NCBI GenBank assembly: GCA_018398585.1 | Contig: JAGTTD010000010.1 | Location: 17,916,005-17,980,004, forward strand | Origin: Simmondsia chinensis | Lineage: Eukaryota; Streptophyta; Magnoliopsida; Caryophyllales; Simmondsiaceae | Direction: 5' to 3' | DNA: 64,000 nt | Part shown: positions 36,419 through 63,558 of the stretch, piece by piece | How positions within the stretch are numbered: the first letter of the stretch is position 1 | Layout: the number at the start of each line of letters is the position of its first letter | Made by a program: the position numbers and the translations under genes | Notes under the pieces: model-generated | What the model saw: the letters and a program-made list of their open reading frames with translations, nothing else | Told to the model about the DNA's origin: nothing | Databases searched by the model: none

Positions 36419-37756
36419 TGCTGAAATTAGTGTCCTAAAAACCCAATTACTTGGTTTTAAATATTAAATAAATAAAATTGTTTTATTTATTTATTATTGG
36501 AATATGTTTTATGAGTCGAATATGCATGTGATTGTTTTTCTCAAGCGTTCCATGAGATGGACTTTGTCCACGATAACGTGTCAGGTTTAGTTTAAGTGGT
36601 CAATGAGATTGAACCATAGATGGACTTATATCAAACTAATGATATGTTGTCGAAGTATATGTTTATAGTTAGTGATGAGTTTGGACAACTTGCCTGATAA
36701 GACTATAATATAATATTTTAGATGACTTGTCTTGGTCATGTGGATAGCGATCCAAAAGTAATATATTGCCGTTGTCTATAAGATTAGAACACTGAGTAGG
36801 ACCGCCTAAATTAGTTGTTCCTCTACTACTATGAAAAAAATTTAATTCTGTAAGATGATAGCTCTAAATCCAGGAAATAGTCTGAACTTGTGAATGGATT
36901 GTTGGTTATTTTAATATACCATTAGGATTAGTTATAGTTGGTTGGCTTAAATCTTATGTGCGTTGGGTAACGGCATGAAGTGTATCGGAAACAGTTGTTT
37001 TACATGGAATCTATAGTCTCTAATGAGATAAGGATGTCCCCTAGTTGATTCGTAAACATACAAACAAATTCGAGAAACTTTGATTAAAGTATTTCATATG
37101 TTTGATATTTGAAATTATTATAGAAATTATTTTCTATATTATTGAATTATTCGAGAAGGGGGAGTCGAGAACTATAGTTAAAGATGTCAAGAAATTAGCG
37201 ACATCATAGTGATGTCAGCGCTTGCTTTATTTGATTATAAATATGTCTTTCTGGCCTTGAGTTGTGATATGTAATTTTTTTTTTTTTTTTTTAGGTTTTG
37301 GATCCTAGTTATCTCTCACGATAAAAACCCAAAAATTGTTTTAGGGGATTTTCTAAATTTATGTTTAGCATAATTTTTCTTAAAAATTTTCCTTAGAAAG
37401 ATTAAAATGAAAAATTTTGTTCCGAAATTTTTCCTAAACTAAATATTTTGGGAGCCCACACTTCAGGTGTCCAGGGGTCATTGCTGAGAAGATCTAACGG
37501 TCTTGATGATTCCTCCAGGACGACAATTACTATCTACACTCTAGGTATTATTAACCTTTCTCTTAAAGCTTTCATATTTTTTTTGAAATTTTATTTATGC
37601 TTTCACTTCAATGTTTATTATGCTTAGATATTCCATATTCGTTATGTTTATATTAGAATAGAGGTTCTTTAGATTTAACATTAAAGAATTTTAAAGTTAT
37701 TTCAGCTATGTTTGATCGAAAAAATTTAGCTTTTGAAATTGAATTTTCCCAATATT
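36419..37756 (+). mobile_element. Inserted LTR, family shared with 55106-56918
   Basis: It starts TGCTGAAATTAGTGTCCT and ends near TTCCCAATATT. It aligns along its length with the solo LTR at 55106-56918, apart from a block of about 450 bp absent here. The flanks GTATG and ATATG match at four of five bases. It sits inside the antisense PMD gene. No internal sequence is present, so it is probably a solo LTR. The right edge is approximate. Confidence 0.7.
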
Positions 37757-54189: not shown

Positions 54190-55105
54190 GTCTAAGTCTC
54201 TAGTAGGGCCTTTTGTAAAGGATCCGCTAGATTTCAGCTTGGTTTCACGAAGTCCATAATGATAATCCCATCCTTGATGAGTTATCTTACACAACTATGT
54301 CTCACACCAATGTGCCTAGACATGCCATTATACACAGTATATGCTTTTGAAAACATAGCCTGACTATTGTAATCGATAGAAATAGGTGAGATTTGCTCAT
54401 GCCACAAAGGAATCTCATACAAGAAATACCTTAATCATTCTGCTTCTTTTGCAGCTGATGCCGGAGCAATGACCTCCGCAACCATAGTTGAATCAATAAT
54501 ACATGTCTGTTTCTTGGAACTCCAAGAAACAACACCCCCACCATGTAAGAAAATTCATCCACTTGTAAAAGCGTAATCCTCTATGTTGGAGATTCAACTG
54601 GAATTCGAATGTCTTTCTAGAGCAGGAGGATACTCACGAAAGAAATATTGTAATATATGATTTTCTTAAGATATTTCACTACTCTATATACTGCATGCTA
54701 ATGTAATTTACTTGGATTGCTAGTATGTCTACTTAGCTTTGCAACTAAAAAGGTTGTATTTGGCCTTGCAGTAGTCATAGCTTACAAGAGACAACCTATG
54801 ACTTTAGCATACTCAAGTTATGCCACTAGAGTACCATCATTTGATACAAGTTTTGTATTTGGATCCATCGATGTGGATGTTGGGGCACATTCATTGTAAT
54901 TAAATCTTTTCAGCACTTTTCAATATAGTGAGCCTGAGTCAAGGATATTGAATTACCATTTCTTATTATTCTCATACCAAGAATGACTTCAGCCTCACGC
55001 ATGTCTTCCACATCAATACCAACTATTAACATGTTATTCACATATAAACAAATAATGACTCCCTTATCATTATCAAACTTGTTATGTACACATTTGTCCG
55101 ATTCA
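54190..55105 (-). pseudogene. Copia 2: RT end and RNase H
   Basis: From 55105 the minus frame reads ESDKCVHNKFDNDKGVIICL, then YVNNMLIVG, where the catalytic YVDD has become YVNN, and LTQAHYIEKC. RNase H follows at 54230-54540 with SKKQTCIIDSTMVAEVIAPA, YNGMSRHIGVRHSCVRQLIK and DGIIIMDFVK. Frameshifts and stops interrupt. The other half of RT is at 56924-57640. Confidence 0.8.
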
Positions 55106-56918
55106 TGTTGGAATTGGAGTCCTGAAAAACCCAAGTAGTTAGTTTTAAATAATTAAATAAAAAAATTGTTTGATTATGTTTTACGAAGTCAAACATGCGT
55201 ATGATTGTTTTTCTAAAACATTCCATGAGATGGACGTTGTCCAAGATGACATGTTAGGTTTGGTTTAAGTGGTTAATGAGATTGAACCACATATAGACTT
55301 AGATCGAACAAAGTGATATGTTGTCTCGTAATACGTGATAAGTATGGACAACTTGTCTGATAAGACTATAATATATTACTTTTGATGACTTGTCTTGGTT
55401 ATGTGGATAGAGATCTAAGAGCATTATATTGGTGTTGCCAATAAGATTGGAACACTGAACAAGACCATCTGAATTATTTTTTTCTTAATTGCTATCAAAT
55501 ATAATAAATTCTGTAAAACGATAACTCTAAATCCAGAAGACAGTTTGAACTCATGCATAAATTGTTTGTTGCTTTGATGCGCAAAAAGGATTAGTCAAAG
55601 TGCGTTGACTTGAATCTTACGTACATTGCATAACAGCATGAAGTGTGGTGGGAACAATTGTTTTACGCGAAATCTGTAGTCTCTAACGAGATAAAAATGT
55701 CCCCTTAATTGATTAACAAATATATGAACAGATTCTAGAATATTTGGCCAGAGTATTCCATATGTTTAATATTTGGAATTAATACGAAAATTATTTCTGT
55801 ATTATTGAATTATTCATGAAGGGTGAATCAGGAACTACAACGAGAGATGTCACAAAAGTACTGTAGTAGTTAAAGTTATTTTTCCTCACGGATATCTACT
55901 AGAGGGGTTAATTGTCGTAATAAAAGTTATTTAGGAAGTTCTTGACTGAATATATTTAATTCTAGAGTGCAGTAAAACTAAGTTTTACTAAATGGTAATC
56001 AATTATTATTATGAGATGATAATTAGATTTGACTCATTTGGAGCTAGAATTAGATCGTCCCTGAGGTCCCTCCAAAGTTTCAACTTAAGCACTTTTTAAA
56101 AATATTTAAAAAATAAATTTATGAGTTGAATTATTTATTTACAAGACAAACAAATTTTCATGCTGAACAAATATTTATGAGATAAATATTTAATAGGATA
56201 AATCATATTATAGTTTAAACAAAATAAAAAAAAGTACGCACAGGGCCCAAATAAGAGTGGGTGAGGGGGCGCATGTAACACAACTAAAAAAAAAGGAGGA
56301 TAACATATTGCTGACATCAGCGACAGGGCTTATACGCGTAAATACGCGTTATTCATCTCTCTTTTTTTATTTATTTAAACGCGCACCCTGTGGAAAACTA
56401 TGTTTTTAGGTTTTGGAACCTGATTTTCTCCCATAACAAAAACTTTAAAATTATTTTAGTAGTTTTTTAAATTATAGTTTAGCATACTTTTTTGAAAATT
56501 TGATTTTTGGAAAGATTAAAGAAAAAATTTTGTTTCGAAATTTTTTCTAAAATAAATATTATTGCCCTCCCGGTGTTAGAAGAGGTCATTGCGAATAAGA
56601 CTTTGAGGTGTCAAGAATTCTTTCACCAATTTTGGATCTTCAAGTCAGAATCAGGATTCATACTTCAGGTATGTCTAAATTAAATATTTGATATCTAATT
56701 TGTTTTCTTTTGTTTCGTTTATTCTACATACCACATTTATACTTATTTTATTCGATGTTTGGTTTGTTATATTATGAATCAATTAGAGTAAAATCTAGAT
56801 ATAATTAAATAGTTATTTAAGTCAGGGCTTTAGATTTAAAATTAAGAATTTTGAATTGGTTTTCTGCTGCACTCGCTCAAGCCGTTTAGGGAAAAAATTT
56901 TGACATATATTCCCAATA
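55106..56918 (+). mobile_element. Solo LTR of about 1.8 kb inside copia 2 RT
   Basis: Starts TGTTGGAATTGGAGTCC and ends TTCCCAATA, with ATTCA on both sides (55101-55105 and 56919-56923). Removing it and one duplication copy joins the two RT halves in frame. It is the same family as 36419-37756. No internal retrotransposon genes. The strand is inferred from a TATA-like box and leader order and is uncertain. Confidence 0.82.
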
Positions 56919-56923
56919 ATTCA

Positions 56924-57640
56924 TTATTCATGAATCTATTGTTTAGAACAATTTGATCAAACTTTTATTGTTTAAGGGCTTGTTTTAGCCCGTATAGAGA
57001 TAGTATGAGTTTATATACTTTTTTCTCTTGACCCGGAACAATACCTCCATGTTGTTCCATATACACCTCTTCCTCCAATTCACCATTTAGGAATGTTGTT
57101 TTCACATCCATTTGGATTCTTTAAATTATAGATAGAGGCTAACTAGAGCAATTAATATTCTAATAGTTGACATCCTTACCCTTAGACGTATGTATCAAAG
57201 TAGTTTATCTCATATTTTGTGGTTAGTCTTTTGGCTACTAATTAGGCTTTGAACCCATCAAAAGTTCCATTGACTTTCATGTTCTTTGTGAAAATCCAGT
57301 TACACCCTATGGCCTTATTTTCAAGTGGGAGATCTACCAAAATCCTGGTATTATTACCTATGAAGGAGGCCATCTCATCATTTATTGTCTTTTTCCAAAA
57401 ATGGGCACATAAGACTTCATAGCCTCATCAAACATCATAGAATTTGACTCTATGACATAACAATTTGTAGTTTGATGATCCGTATTGTCTCTAATTGCTT
57501 CCACTAGAAATGTATAGAACTCTGGACAGAAATACTTCTCTTTCCTTGCTCTTTTACTTCTTCTAAGTTTTAGTGCATTATCAGGGATATCTTCCCTTAT
57601 ATCATGATCTATATCATATGACAAAGACAATGTTACTTTC
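56924..57640 (-). pseudogene. Copia 2: RT N-terminal half
   Basis: The minus strand shows LRRSKRARKEKYF at 57560, an ending like EMASFIGNNT near 57360, GCNWIFTKNMKVNGTFDGFK at about 57300, and the RT core segment [20 protein letters not shown] (57040-57110) leading to KFDQIVLNNRFM at the solo LTR. These are plant Ty1/copia RT blocks. Several stops. Integrase and gag are not seen further right. Confidence 0.75.
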
Positions 57641-57846
57641 TACCGAAATGAAATCTTTTGGTCTAGAAATTTAGCAAAAAAACCCATTTTCATCTTAATA
57701 TATTTTGCTTCACATTATCATAATGCAACATCATTTCATCAACATTAATGCAAGATTCAAACTCACTTTTGCATACTCATCCATATTTACGTTCATGAAC
57801 TTCTGTTTACCCATATTTAAATCATCACAAAATATCATATCATTTA
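57641..57846. other. AT-rich stretch left of the SINE
   Basis: No gene seen; its last 20 bp (57827-57846) are the left target duplication of the SINE. Confidence 0.5.
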
Positions 57847-58093
57847 CCTTAAAAGGGTACCAACATGCAAGCACCGGATCCCATTAGAACTTTCAAGTTA
57901 AGTGTGCTTAGGCAAGAGTAGTACCAAGATGGATAACCTTCTAGGAAGTCCTCGTGTTGCACCTCTCAAGTTGGGGGTTCTCGAAAACAGCCTCTCTTCA
58001 AGGTAGCACCCTGAATGGGGAAGGCTGCGTACATCAACCCCCCAGACCCTGCTTAGGCGGGAGCTATTAGGATACTGGGAATGTTGCTTTTTT
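57847..58093 (+). mobile_element. 5S rRNA-headed SINE with Au-SINE-like 3' end
   Basis: 57855-57966 is a nearly full 5S rRNA sequence (112 of about 120 bp), with box A AAGTTAAGTGTGCTTAGGC (57895-57913), an intermediate element (57928-57938) and box C GTCCTCGTGTTGCA (57948-57961). 57967-58087 resembles the 3' half of plant Au SINEs: GAAAACAGCCTCTCTTCAAG, GGCTGCGTACAT, CCCCAGACCC, GGCGGGAGC. A six-T tail follows. A 20-bp duplication, 18 of 20 matching, flanks the whole unit (57827-57846 and 58094-58113), so both parts moved as one. 5S boxes A and C can recruit TFIIIA/RNA polymerase III; activity of this copy is unknown. Confidence 0.85.
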
Positions 58094-58113
58094 ACAAAAT
58101 ATCTTGTCATTTA

Positions 58114-59024
58114 TTACATTAAAACTTATGGGTAATTAAAAATAAATCATTATAATTCAATATACTTATTTTCTCAAGCCTTGGTCACTGTAGTGACTAA
58201 CAAATTATTATAACAATAAATATAAAACCACGTAATAGGATTATTTTTCATGCGAAAATTATACATAATTGCGCTCAATTTATCCATGAAATGATATTAA
58301 GCATCAGCATAAAAAATAATAATCACATAGTATTTACCATTCGTGATCCACTATTTTTAAATTATGTCGAATTCACACCACTTTTGTTTTTATCAAGTAA
58401 ACAAAAAAATTTCATGTTTACAAAATGAAAACCGCAACAAATCATGGCGGCATTAACATGCATGAACAAATCAACTTTGTAAGTGCCTCAACACATATAC
58501 ATGCTTATACTGAAATTCTTTACATAATTATGAACATACATGCATTAAATCTCAATTTAATTATTCTCCATGCTACAAATTTGCAAGACAATAGATTTAC
58601 AGTATATGCATAAGACAAATTATATTCTATTTATATTCACCAATTATGTATACATATATTTTTGTATTAATAGCACAAAATTCAAAAGTAAAGCACGGTT
58701 AAACAATCCATGTACATTTTATATACTTCAATATCCTTCACATTCAATTCATAATAAAATATTTATCATCCATGTTATTTAAGATTGTAAGTGATAAATT
58801 CAGTTACTTGTGGTTTTCCTTATCTTATATGTTCCTTTTTTTTTTATTATATTAGTTTTATCATCGTCTTGGAGTCCGGTTTCAACAGCCATGTAAAATA
58901 AAAATTTTCCTTTTTGACATCACCTTGACATCTAATTTCAATAACCACCCAAAACAAGGTTTCGTATTCTTTTGGTTATTTATTTTTACACAACATAATA
59001 TATTCCTAAAGCAATACCATTATT
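58114..59024. other. AT-rich non-coding stretch
   Basis: No recognisable gene or element. It ends in TTATT (59020-59024), the left target duplication of copia 3. Confidence 0.55.
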
Positions 59025-59167
59025 TGTTAGAATATAATATATAAGTTGTTAATATTTGTATATTTGGCCATCTGGGCCTAGGGCTTATGTAAACTTCCAT
59101 TGTACTTCTCTCAAATAAATATATGAGAGGACTCCCATCATTCAGTGGGTTCCTCATTATTCTTTCA
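59025..59167 (+). repeat. 5' LTR of copia 3
   Basis: 143 bp. Contains TATA-like AATAAATATATGAG, as in many short copia LTRs. Confidence 0.92.
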
Positions 59168-59243
59168 TGGTATTAGAGCCAAAAGCTTAAAACGCTCTCT
59201 TATTCTTTCATGATATTAGAGCCTAAAGCTTAAAACGCTCTCT
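59158..59243 (+). repeat. 43-bp tandem duplication containing the primer-binding site
   Basis: Units 59158-59200 and 59201-59243 both carry the LTR end TATTCTTTCA, a primer-binding site (TGGTATTAGAGCC at 59168; TGATATTAGAGCC at 59211) and AAGCTTAAAACGCTCTCT. Only the left one abuts the complete LTR. Confidence 0.9.
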
Positions 59244-59733
59244 TTTTCCAAGGCAAACCCTAGCCACCCGACAGAAAAAAAACCCCCGATCAGCGCAAAC
59301 AATAGTGCCGACCACCCAAGCGCCACCACCACCCCTCGTTGCTATGCCCCCTCTCATCGCTGGTCTCCCTCATCGACACAAATCCTAGCCACCACAAAAT
59401 AAAACCCTAGCCCTCACATCTTCTCCAGCCGCCATCTCTCTCTTTGTGTCAGAGTCGCCGGTAAACTCTCACCGTCGAACACCGCCATACGCTAGAGCAC
59501 TGTCGTCCAGATGAACACCATCGTGATTTCTCTCTCTTGCCCTGTTGCACACCCGCACCGATCTTTCTCTCTAGCTCTCTATCAGAGTCGAATATATTTC
59601 TCTCTGACAAACTTAAAGATATCAGAAATGAAAATTTATTCCGCAACAAGTTTGTGATTCTGTCTGGTTAGCCATCGAATATATTGGTCGCTGTCGATTA
59701 TGCTCGCTCCGATGATGGATTCTGCTTCACAAC
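59244..59733 (+). other. Copia 3 leader; gag mostly missing
   Basis: C-rich in its first half. No open gag frame is visible where about 250 codons of capsid sequence are expected. Confidence 0.55.
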
Positions 59734-61344
59734 TTGTCCTGCCTTTCTTTGGTACTCCCATTTATGGTGAGAATGTGTGTTCATCCTAAAACTAATACTT
59801 ATGCCACTGGTTCTAATTTCTACTCAGGGCTTGCATTTCCTCAAAACCATTTTCAATCTGTCGCTACTCACCCAACTCCTATGATTGATTTTCCTTGGAT
59901 AATGGATAGTGGCGCCTCATCTCATATGACTAATAACCCTAATTTGGCTAAAATCTCTTAGTCCTTATAATGCTTGCAAAAAATATTAGTTGGCAATGGT
60001 GCCTGTTTATAAATTGCTGGGGTAGGATCTGGTTTTCTTAGTACACTTGTTGGTCTTTCAACATGCATAATGTCCTTTATATCCCTGGTCTCTCCACCAA
60101 TTTAATATTTGTCGGCCAATTCTGTAAAGATAATTGTTTCCCTTTAGAATTTGACTCGGGTCGTTTTTCCATTAAAAATGCTAAAATGATGTCTCTCGTA
60201 ATGTGCTAGCTCGGGGCCTCTTTTCTCCGTTCCTAAGTCATCCTCTACACATGTTTCATTAGTTGCTTCTAAAACTACACAGTCTCTCTAGTATCGTAGA
60301 CTTGGTCATCCCGGGCAGCCAATCTTATCCTCATTAGTTAAACACAAATTCATTTCCTTTTCAAGTTCTACCTTAGAGTCTAATCTTTGTCATGCTTGTC
60401 AATTGGGTAAACACAATCAATTACCCTTTCGGAAATCAGAGTTGAGTAGTTCTCAACCATTTGATATTGTTCATTCGAATGTATAGATATCTCCTATTTT
60501 CAGTTCCAGTGGTTATAAGTATTATTTGCTGCTTTTGGATGATTATTCTCACTATGTGTGGATTTACCCTATTCGTGCCAAATCTAAGGTGTTTGGTTTA
60601 TTTGTTCAGTTTCGTAATCTCATCTTAAATTAGTTTGGAGTTGAGATTAAGCACTTTTAGTGTGATAATGGAACTAAATACATTAATCACTATTTCAATG
60701 GCCTCTTTGCACAACAAGGCATTCTAAGTCAAGTTTCATGTCCACACACCTCACAACAGAATGGTAAAGCGAAGCGAATGCATAGACCAGTTGGAAATAT
60801 GATGAGATCTCTTCTATTGCTGACATGTATGCCTTTAGAGTACTGGGTTGAAGCTATGCTTGTTGTTACTTATATTATTAATCTCTTGCTCTCTACTTCC
60901 ATTAAGAGGAAGATCATGCTTCTGCACCTTTATAAAAATAAGGTTACATATGATCATCTTCGGGTTTTTGGATGTGCTTGTTATCCAAATTTAAGTGCTA
61001 TTGCACCGCATAAACTTGCTCCTTGATCCAGCTTGTGTGTTTTCTTGGGATATCCGCTTAATCATAAGGGCTATAAATGTCTTGATCTATTTACAAACAA
61101 AGTGATCATTTCTAGCCATGTCACCTTTGATGAAACAGATTTTCCAATTGCTAGGTTGGGAGCTACTTCACAGGTTACAATGTATCATCTTCAACAGATA
61201 TTCTCATTATCTCTTGCTTCATCTCTGTTTGTGGGGACGTCACCACCTGCCGTCCAACTAGACCCCGCTGCTACTGTCAACTGTGTGCCAACAACGATTG
61301 CCCCCCATCATGCACCTCACCGACGACATCTGATGCCACCATAA
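59734..61344 (+). pseudogene. Copia 3 protease and integrase
   Basis: The protease active site is in WIMDSGASSHMTNNPNLAK (about 59895). The GAG-pre-integrase zinc region at 60380-60430 has CHACQLGKHNQLPF. The integrase core follows: SSGYKYYLLLLDDYSHYVW, CDNGTKY, GILSQVSCPHTSQQNGKAKR (normally NGxAER). The tail is DHLRVFGCACYPNLSA and LCVFLGYPLNHKGYKCLD. At least four stops and several frame changes. Confidence 0.85.
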
Positions 61345-62989
61345 GTGATATCCCTACTCGTGAGCCATCTCCACCCCCGGCCGCCACCTGCACCCATTCC
61401 CTTAGTTCATCCTATGATCACTCGTTCTAAATTCGGTATAGTGAAGCCCCTTTTTAAACCCTTTATGTTTGCTGGTACTGTTATATCCAAAATTCCATAC
61501 TCTTATAAGCAGGCTCTTGAAGATGAAAATTGGAAAGCTACAATGCTTGATGAATATCAAGCTCTTTTACGCAACAATATTTGGACATTGGTACCTTGTC
61601 CTAATCATGCTAATGTCGTCGAGTCAAAATGGGTTTATCGGGTTAAGCAAACTCCAATAGGTCAGGTTGAACGCTACAAAGCTCGATTGGTAGCTCAGGG
61701 GTTCACACAATGTTACGGCATCGATTATGGTGAAACTTTCAGTTTTGTTATCAAGCCTGCTACAGTTCGTATTGTACTCACTATTGCCACTTCTCATAAG
61801 TGGCCCATTTATCAGCTTGACGTCAAAAATACTTTTCTGCATGGCACTTTGCATGAAGAGGTTTACATGAAGCAACCGCCTAGTTTTGTGGATTCTCAAT
61901 TTCTTGATTTTGTTTGCTAGTTGAACAAGTCTCTATATTGTCTTAAACAAGCACCTCGTGCATGGTATACTCAATTTGCTTCGTTTCTAGGGACTGATAT
62001 GGCCATCTTACTGGTGTATGTGGATGATATTGTTATCACTGCTTCTTAGATTCATTACTTCATGCATTACTTCACTCTCTTCGCTGTGAATTTGATATGA
62101 CAGATCTGGGACGTCTCAATTATTTTCTCAAAATTTCAGTATCGTATCTCTCTACAGGTCTATTTTTGTCTGAGTCAAAATATGCTCATGATCTTCTAGA
62201 TATGACTGATATGCTTTCATGCAAACCTGTTGCCACCCCTACTGATTCCAAATCCAAACTATCTTTGACTGATGGCGATCTTATGTCTGATCCTACTATG
62301 TACCGATCTGTTATAGGTGCCTTGCAATATTTTACCTTTACACGTCCTGATATTTCATATGTAGTACAAAAAGTGTTCCCTTTCATGCGCGTTCCTCACC
62401 TTCCACATTGGGTCACTGTAAAACGCATCCTTCGGTATATCAAGGGTACCTTAGATCATGGCTTGACTATATCTCCTTCCTCTTTAGATCAGCTTGTAGC
62501 TTATTCTAATGTTGATTGGGCATGCTATCTTGATACCGGCCACTCCACGTCTGGCTTTTGTTTTTTTTTTTTTTTTTTTTGGTTTGCAATACTATCTCCT
62601 GGCCTTCTAAACGTCAACTTACTATCTCTTGCTCTAGTGCAGAATCTGAGCATCGCACCATTGCCAATGTTGTTTCAGAATGTTGCTGGCTTCGCTCCTT
62701 ATTACATGAACTTGGTGTTTCTATTCCTTGAGCTACATTGGTTTATTGTGATAATCTTTCTGCTACATACTTGTCTACTAACCCCATGCAGCATGTTCGT
62801 ACTAAGCATATTGAAATTGGCATTCACTTTGTTTGGGAGTGTGGTCAGATGGGCCTTGTTCGAGTTCTTTACATTCCTTCTTCACAGCAGATTGCAAACA
62901 TGTTCACAAAAAGTCTTCCGCGTCACTTATTTCTTTTATTTAGAGACAATTTTTGCATTCGTTTATCTCCTACTTTGATTGAGGGGGGA
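61345..62989 (+). pseudogene. Copia 3 RT and RNase H
   Basis: RT: YSYKQALEDENWKATMLDEY, VESKWVYRVKQT, RYKARLVAQGFTQCYGIDYG, YQLDVKNTFLHGTLHEEVYM and the catalytic LLVYVDDIVITAS at 62010-62045. Before that motif, FASFLGTDM joins directly, so several tens of residues are deleted. RNase H: GALQYFTFTRPDISY, HSTSGFCFF interrupted by a T run at about 62561-62580, and KHIEIGIHFVWECG, ending near 62990. Stops at 61918 and 62048 and frame changes break it. Confidence 0.88.
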
Positions 62990-63132
62990 TGTTAGAATAT
63001 AATGTATAGGTTGTTAATATTTGTACATTGGGTCATCTGGGCCTAGGGCTTATGTAAACTTCCATTGTACTTTTCTTCTATAAATATATGAGAGGGCTCC
63101 TATCATTCAGTGGGTTCCTCATTATTCTTTCA
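62990..63132 (+). repeat. 3' LTR of copia 3
   Basis: 143-bp direct repeat of 59025-59167, immediately after the polypurine tract. Confidence 0.92.
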
Positions 63133-63558
63133 TTATTATTGCATTATATTACTTCATGAAAAATTTATGTATAGAAGAATTACATTACATTATTTATTTG
63201 TGTATTCATCATTTTGCAAGATTCAATGGGGGTTTCCATTATATACAAAATTCTAAATTCTCTACCCACGATTCTAAACCGTAATAATTCCGTAAAAATA
63301 AAACAATGGATTTATCATGAAGCAGTTTTCATGTTGTCAGACCATGAAATGGCAGCGAGATCAATGTAAACAATCTAATATAATTAAAGATTATCCATCT
63401 TGAATTGAATTTAATTCTGATGATTCAAGAGCTACCCATTTACAAATTTCATGACCTTGTAATAGACAAAGGGCCACGTAATTAAGAGATGGCGAATGAG
63501 GAGAATGCCTTATAGATAATTCATCATTTGATCAAATTTAAGTATAACTTAAAAACAC
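63133..63558. other. AT-rich non-coding stretch
   Basis: No gene or element recognised. Begins with the right TTATT duplication of copia 3. Confidence 0.55.

Follow-up and report, generated by a model that had tools for sequence, protein, structure and literature searches.

In a stretch of 64,000 nucleotides (nt) from Simmondsia chinensis (assembly GCA_018398585.1, contig JAGTTD010000010.1, positions 17,916,005 to 17,980,004 of the forward strand; called the window below and numbered from its first letter), the plus strand at 57847-58093 carries a 5S rRNA sequence followed by the 3' half of a plant short interspersed nuclear element (SINE). We interpret this composite as one copy of a short plant retroposon, now old and decayed, in which a 5S rRNA-derived head is joined to an Au/Angio-type SINE 3' half; it would have originated by template switching and would belong to a small family, and for this interpretation as a whole we estimate a probability of about 0.5. 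Plant SINEs are called tRNA-derived in a 2022 review (PMC9033089), and a 5S head would constitute a new promoter type for them if further copies exist.

A 5S-derived head and an Au/Angio-type tail

In a scan with Rfam covariance models, the 5S rRNA family RF00001 matches the plus strand at 57853-57965 over model positions 1-120 with 49.6 bits (E 2.5e-7; gathering score 38), and it is the sole Rfam family reaching its gathering threshold in the whole window. An ungapped comparison with a plant 5S reference, which was not taken from a database, gives 88 identities in 109 positions over nt 12-120, and the match runs without gap right up to the 5S 3' terminus, whereas over nt 1-11 only 2 of 11 positions agree. 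The "nearly complete" 5S sequence claimed in a preliminary description of this DNA is therefore found for nt 12-120 and is missing for the first 11 bases. The same description placed internal promoter boxes in the 5S part, and these are indeed there: the box A-like element is an exact match to the motif published for the retrotransposon Cassandra, the box C-like element is mismatched at 1 of 13 positions, and the two are separated by 18 nt, equal to the published Cassandra spacing (PMC7215508). A 5S-derived head with type-1 internal promoter boxes is a feature shared with SINE3 elements, and judging from the boxes alone the element would be transcribed by RNA polymerase III (pol III).

The Au-SINE-like tail ending in Ts also withstood closer inspection. 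Local alignment of the element scores 54 against an Au reference and 81 against a TS-like reference, neither of them taken from a database, and the best of 300 dinucleotide shuffles for each reference reaches only 39 and 38, respectively; the tail closes with TTTTTT. Judged on these references, a conserved Au/Angio-type 3' half with a terminal T-run is present. Three of its four hallmark strings are unique to the element on the plus strand of the window, and the fourth, AAACAGCC, is found once more. Many angiosperm SINEs are described as possessing a 37-bp 3' Angio-domain (PMC9033089), and the tail likely belongs to this domain. Among the matches listed in a literature search with a ten-letter tail string, none had a title dealing with SINEs.

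Head and tail are enclosed by a single target-site duplication, whose copies ACAAAATATCATATCATTTA (5' of the head) and ACAAAATATCTTGTCATTTA (3' of the T-run) abut both outer borders and agree at 18 of 20 positions. Among 20,000 placements drawn at random within the 500-bp flank on either side, not one was as good (best score 9, versus 14 observed), and the best repeat bracketing the tail alone has 6 bases. Therefore, the 5S head and the Au-type tail most likely entered together in one insertion, and the imperfect 20-bp duplication and the retroposition of both parts as a unit, as proposed in the preliminary description, are both upheld. SINE3 elements are further characterised by insertion as a whole, marked by a target-site duplication, and by a 3' tail of LINE type (LINE, long interspersed nuclear element); both apply here, the tail being presumably LINE-derived. 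With a 3-nt gap introduced, the two copies of the duplication lengthen to 28 and 31 bp, which moves the start of the element to GGGTACC (57855). As extensions as good as this one arise in 992 of 20,000 trials (about 5%), both 5' borders are kept. In the 20-bp reading the element begins exactly at the position of 5S nt 1, but with 11 foreign bases there, and the longer one implies a 5S head with a slight truncation. The features are compiled in Table 1.

Table 1. Parts of the composite element and the duplication that encloses it (positions in the window)
Feature	Positions	Strand	Remarks
Target-site duplication, 5' copy	57827-57846	.	20 bp, 18 identical; to 57854 in the gapped reading
5S rRNA-derived head	57847-57966	+	nt 12-120 recognisable; nt 1-11 (57847-57857) without match
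Box A-like promoter element AGTTAAGTGTGC	57896-57907	+	identical to the published Cassandra motif RGTTAAGYRHGY (PMC7215508)
Box C-like promoter element AAGATGGATAACC	57926-57938	+	1 mismatch (A for G of the motif) to RRRATRGGTRACY (PMC7215508)
Linker from the 5S end to the Au-type core	57967-57984	+	18 nt
Au/Angio-type SINE 3' half	57985-58093	+	AAACAGCC, AAGGCTGCGTAC, CCAGACCC, GCGGGAGC; T6 at 58088-58093; judged on references not taken from a database
Target-site duplication, 3' copy	58094-58113	.	to 58124 in the gapped reading

It is possible but unproven that the linker includes a worn tRNA T-arm or B box (GTTGGGGGTTC). The best B-box fit near the junction is mismatched at 4 of 9 positions, a score equalled at 1678 plus-strand positions of the window and thus not above background. 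An A-box-like fit with 1 mismatch at 57845 straddles the 5' border. A tRNA head with A and B boxes was rejected, as there is no tRNA in the window and the B-box fit stays at background.

Search for relatives and decay of the head

Neither half has a second copy in the window, where other matches are short weak pieces (E 0.36-0.87) and where pattern searches allowing 3 mismatches gave 3 and 2 matches, none of them a second copy of either half; a further search of the window met this element only. Patterns for the junction and for the Au tail had 0 matches in each of four scans of the collections viral_contigs and genome_contigs. With a degenerate pattern five loci were obtained for the junction, and with a tail pattern one locus, and all six were judged to be chance from their alignments. 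The nulls of these pattern scans carry little weight because the scanned collections hold little plant DNA: a 29-base canonical plant 5S pattern, serving as positive control, also had 0 exact matches in viral_contigs, and genome_contigs, which is bacterial and archaeal, was scanned without such a control. Three protein-level searches, for which antisense translations of the element were the queries, returned 1, 0, and 13 5S-bearing translated stretches. The Au part is absent from the single stretch (P0001), which aligned over the 5S part only, and from the 13 others, none of which covers more than 50% of the query; visual inspection shows the 5S part in all 13 and the Au part in none. Multiple copies with the same junction, for which the preliminary description suggested a search, were therefore not encountered, no relative appearing in viral and prokaryotic contigs or in the protein collections, all poor in plant DNA.

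Eight of the 13 stretches, all from JGI contigs (P0003, P0004, P0006, and P0010-P0014), share a conserved block outside the 5S sequence that includes consecutive Asn codons, which may reflect repeated GTT or ATT at the DNA level. This block has the look of a repeat lying next to 5S sequence, and it may be 5S spacer or another 5S-bearing element.

Over nt 12-120 the head differs from 5S at 21 positions, and 14 of these differences are C>T or G>A changes, as expected of methylated DNA. The remaining 7 are distributed unevenly, with 5 in the 38 positions of nt 12-49, 1 in the 48 of the promoter span (nt 50-97), and 1 in the 23 of nt 98-120, which is a hint, and no more than that, of past selection on the promoter. 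A promoter that is kept while the sequence upstream has diverged is the pattern of animal 5S-headed elements (PMC10886601), and the non-deamination changes of the element follow a similar pattern.

Several points weigh against our interpretation. Only one copy of the element is known, and the partner LINE for Au-type SINEs is listed as unknown in a 2013 review (PMC3747384). Predicted RNA folds offer no help, that of the whole element being matched by 64 of 200 shuffles and that of the tail by 78 of 200. The contrast in non-deamination changes between the promoter span and the region upstream (1/48 in nt 50-97 versus 12/49 in nt 1-49; Fisher p 0.002) comes from a test picked after the changes had been seen. 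It loses significance once the doubtful nt 1-11, which may be flank, are left aside (p 0.08 versus nt 12-49; p 0.13 versus nt 12-49 plus 98-120). If all changes are counted, the most intact segment is nt 98-120, with 21 of 23 positions matched versus 39 of 48 in the promoter span. Finally, given the uncertain 5' border, the copy may lack part of its 5' end.

Origin of the composite and competing explanations

The likely origin of the composite is a template switch during LINE-driven reverse transcription, in which the enzyme moved from an Au-type SINE RNA to 5S RNA. The reverse transcriptase that first gave the element its head would have begun at the 3' terminus of the Au-type RNA and then continued at the 3' end of a 5S RNA. 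A junction lying exactly at the 5S 3' end fits such a switch, because this is where the enzyme would be expected to land. On the natural reading, a tRNA head would thereby have been exchanged for a 5S head, and the pairs HaSE3 and HaSE1 and Ped-1 and Ped-2, described below, are animal precedents for this. Driven by the type-1 (5S) internal promoter, pol III would transcribe the resulting element into an RNA that ends at a T-run, and a LINE protein would recognise the Au 3' end of this RNA and insert a copy of it at a chromosomal site through target-primed reverse transcription. At about even odds, we lean, without proof, towards the view that the element belongs to a small family, comparable to SINE3 or HaSE3 but in a plant, and is not itself the founding event.

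A serious competitor, although we give it less credence, is a one-off chimeric retropseudogene, in which the reverse transcriptase jumped to 5S rRNA during an ordinary Au-type SINE insertion and the copy never served as a source. The single duplication, the intact 5S 3' end at the junction, and the lost 5S 5' end would all be expected in this case, and the 7 non-deamination differences in 109 positions fit neutral decay, with a divergence of the duplication of 2/20 (95% interval 1-32%). The scanned collections yielded no relative, an absence that weighs little in collections so poor in plant DNA, and the uneven non-deamination changes hint at selection on the promoter before insertion, which speaks against a one-off. 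Dating from C>T plus G>A decay does not clearly separate a one-off from a family copy. It seems improbable that the head stems from a Cassandra transcript instead of cellular 5S rRNA, the event being otherwise the same as we propose. In its favour, the boxes and the distance between them agree with what defines Cassandra (PMC7215508), the head ends in GCACC versus GCATC in the 5S reference, and T79C lies between the intermediate element (IE) and box C, in a stretch reported as variable in Cassandra (PMC10853983). However, 11 of the 13 translated 5S-bearing stretches, which may themselves be 5S genes, pseudogenes, or Cassandra, imply GC-any-CC too (Gly there; Val in P0012 and Asp in P0014), so the GCACC base is not diagnostic of Cassandra. 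Furthermore, the match stops at the 5S 3' end with no identifiable continuation into a long terminal repeat (LTR), and no Cassandra-type primer-binding site (PBS) with at most 2 mismatches occurs from 55001 to a copia LTR end at 59168. Over 55001-61000, PBS matches at this same stringency are confined to 59168 and 59211, both beside that separate copia LTR, and an arrangement with 5S inside two LTRs and a PBS by the 5' LTR is not seen.

5S and Au-type sequences are both common in plants, and an Au SINE might simply have landed beside a 5S pseudogene or in a Cassandra LTR, the outer repeat being a coincidence. We consider this very improbable, since the outer repeat is beyond chance (0/20,000) and a repeat flanking only the tail is at best 6 bases long. 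In addition, no 5S spacer or LTR was recognised around the head, a judgement made without host 5S spacer or Cassandra sequence for comparison. The landing of an Au SINE in a 5S repeat or Cassandra LTR, which the preliminary description had itself named as a case that would speak against a composite retroposon, is thus disfavoured by the flank tests.

Genomic surroundings and comparison with known systems

Ty1-copia sequences lie on both sides of the insertion. Downstream, a copia element is bounded by LTRs at 59025-59175 and 62990-63138 (91% identical) and contains an open reading frame for an RVT_2 reverse transcriptase at 61345-61920 and, at 59168, a PBS-like sequence (TGGTATTAGAGC). Upstream, a broken copia piece on the minus strand (56965-57639) stops about 190 bp before the 5S-Au insertion; its RVT_2 match spans 56965-57120, and the adjoining frames up to 57639 are copia-like by eye and have no Pfam match. 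Elsewhere in the window, a degenerate tandem repeat at 770-1271 (period mostly 22 bp, 15 copies listed) overlaps a 149-nt imperfect inverted repeat with arms at 619-767 and 783-931, and the segments 36419-37197 and 55106-55860 are 77% identical over about 780 bp, apparently as dispersed copies of one repeat.

SINEs with 5S heads have been named in fish, mammals, and insects (PMC3272025), and 5S-related SINEs are also described in a fungus, Aspergillus. A 2010 paper (PMC3095306) states that 5S-like SINE3 elements occur in plants as well, but the source cited there is the Cassandra paper. In the literature found, to which neither Repbase nor the main survey of plant SINEs belonged, no plant 5S-headed SINE family is named. 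That flowering plants possess a SINE family combining a 5S head with the Au/Angio 3' domain, i.e., a plant SINE3, which could also be the source of the Cassandra 5S sequence, seems to us a real prospect somewhat short of an even chance. If our interpretation is true, a pol III promoter other than that of a tRNA head can drive the Au/Angio 3' domain of plants, and head swapping through template switching occurs in plants, as proposed for insects. The 5S promoter of Cassandra has been guessed to stem from a SINE3 insertion into an LTR (PMC10886601), whereas a 2024 study proposes that Cassandra picked up 5S from nearby 5S arrays (PMC10853983); the existence of a plant SINE3 would make the former origin testable.

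Like Cassandra, a terminal-repeat retrotransposon in miniature (TRIM), the element is a non-autonomous plant retroelement with a 5S promoter, and its box motifs and spacing match (PMC7215508). In Cassandra, however, 5S lies within LTRs accompanied by a PBS, whereas here no LTRs are seen and the element has a duplication of about 20 bp and a SINE tail. With the superfamily of Au/Angio-domain SINEs it shares the motifs of the 3' half and the T-run, but these SINEs are described with tRNA heads. A 5' pol III promoter derived from 5S is common to the SINE3 class, the springhare element Ped-1, and the 5S-related SINEs of Aspergillus, and Ped-1 also carries a LINE tail, the same one that follows the tRNA head of Ped-2 (PMC3747384). 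These elements are from animals and a fungus, no plant member being named in the sources at hand, whereas the tail described here is of the plant Au type. By analogy, the closest precedent is HaSE3 from Helicoverpa armigera, in which a 5S head is followed by a 3' region from a tRNA SINE, HaSE1 being its tRNA-headed partner, and for which the authors propose template switching (PMC3272025). HaSE3 differs in belonging to an insect, in the many copies that establish it as a family, and in a tail that resembles an RTE LINE and not Au/Angio (PMC3272025), but both combine a 5S head with a 3' region from a tRNA-type SINE.
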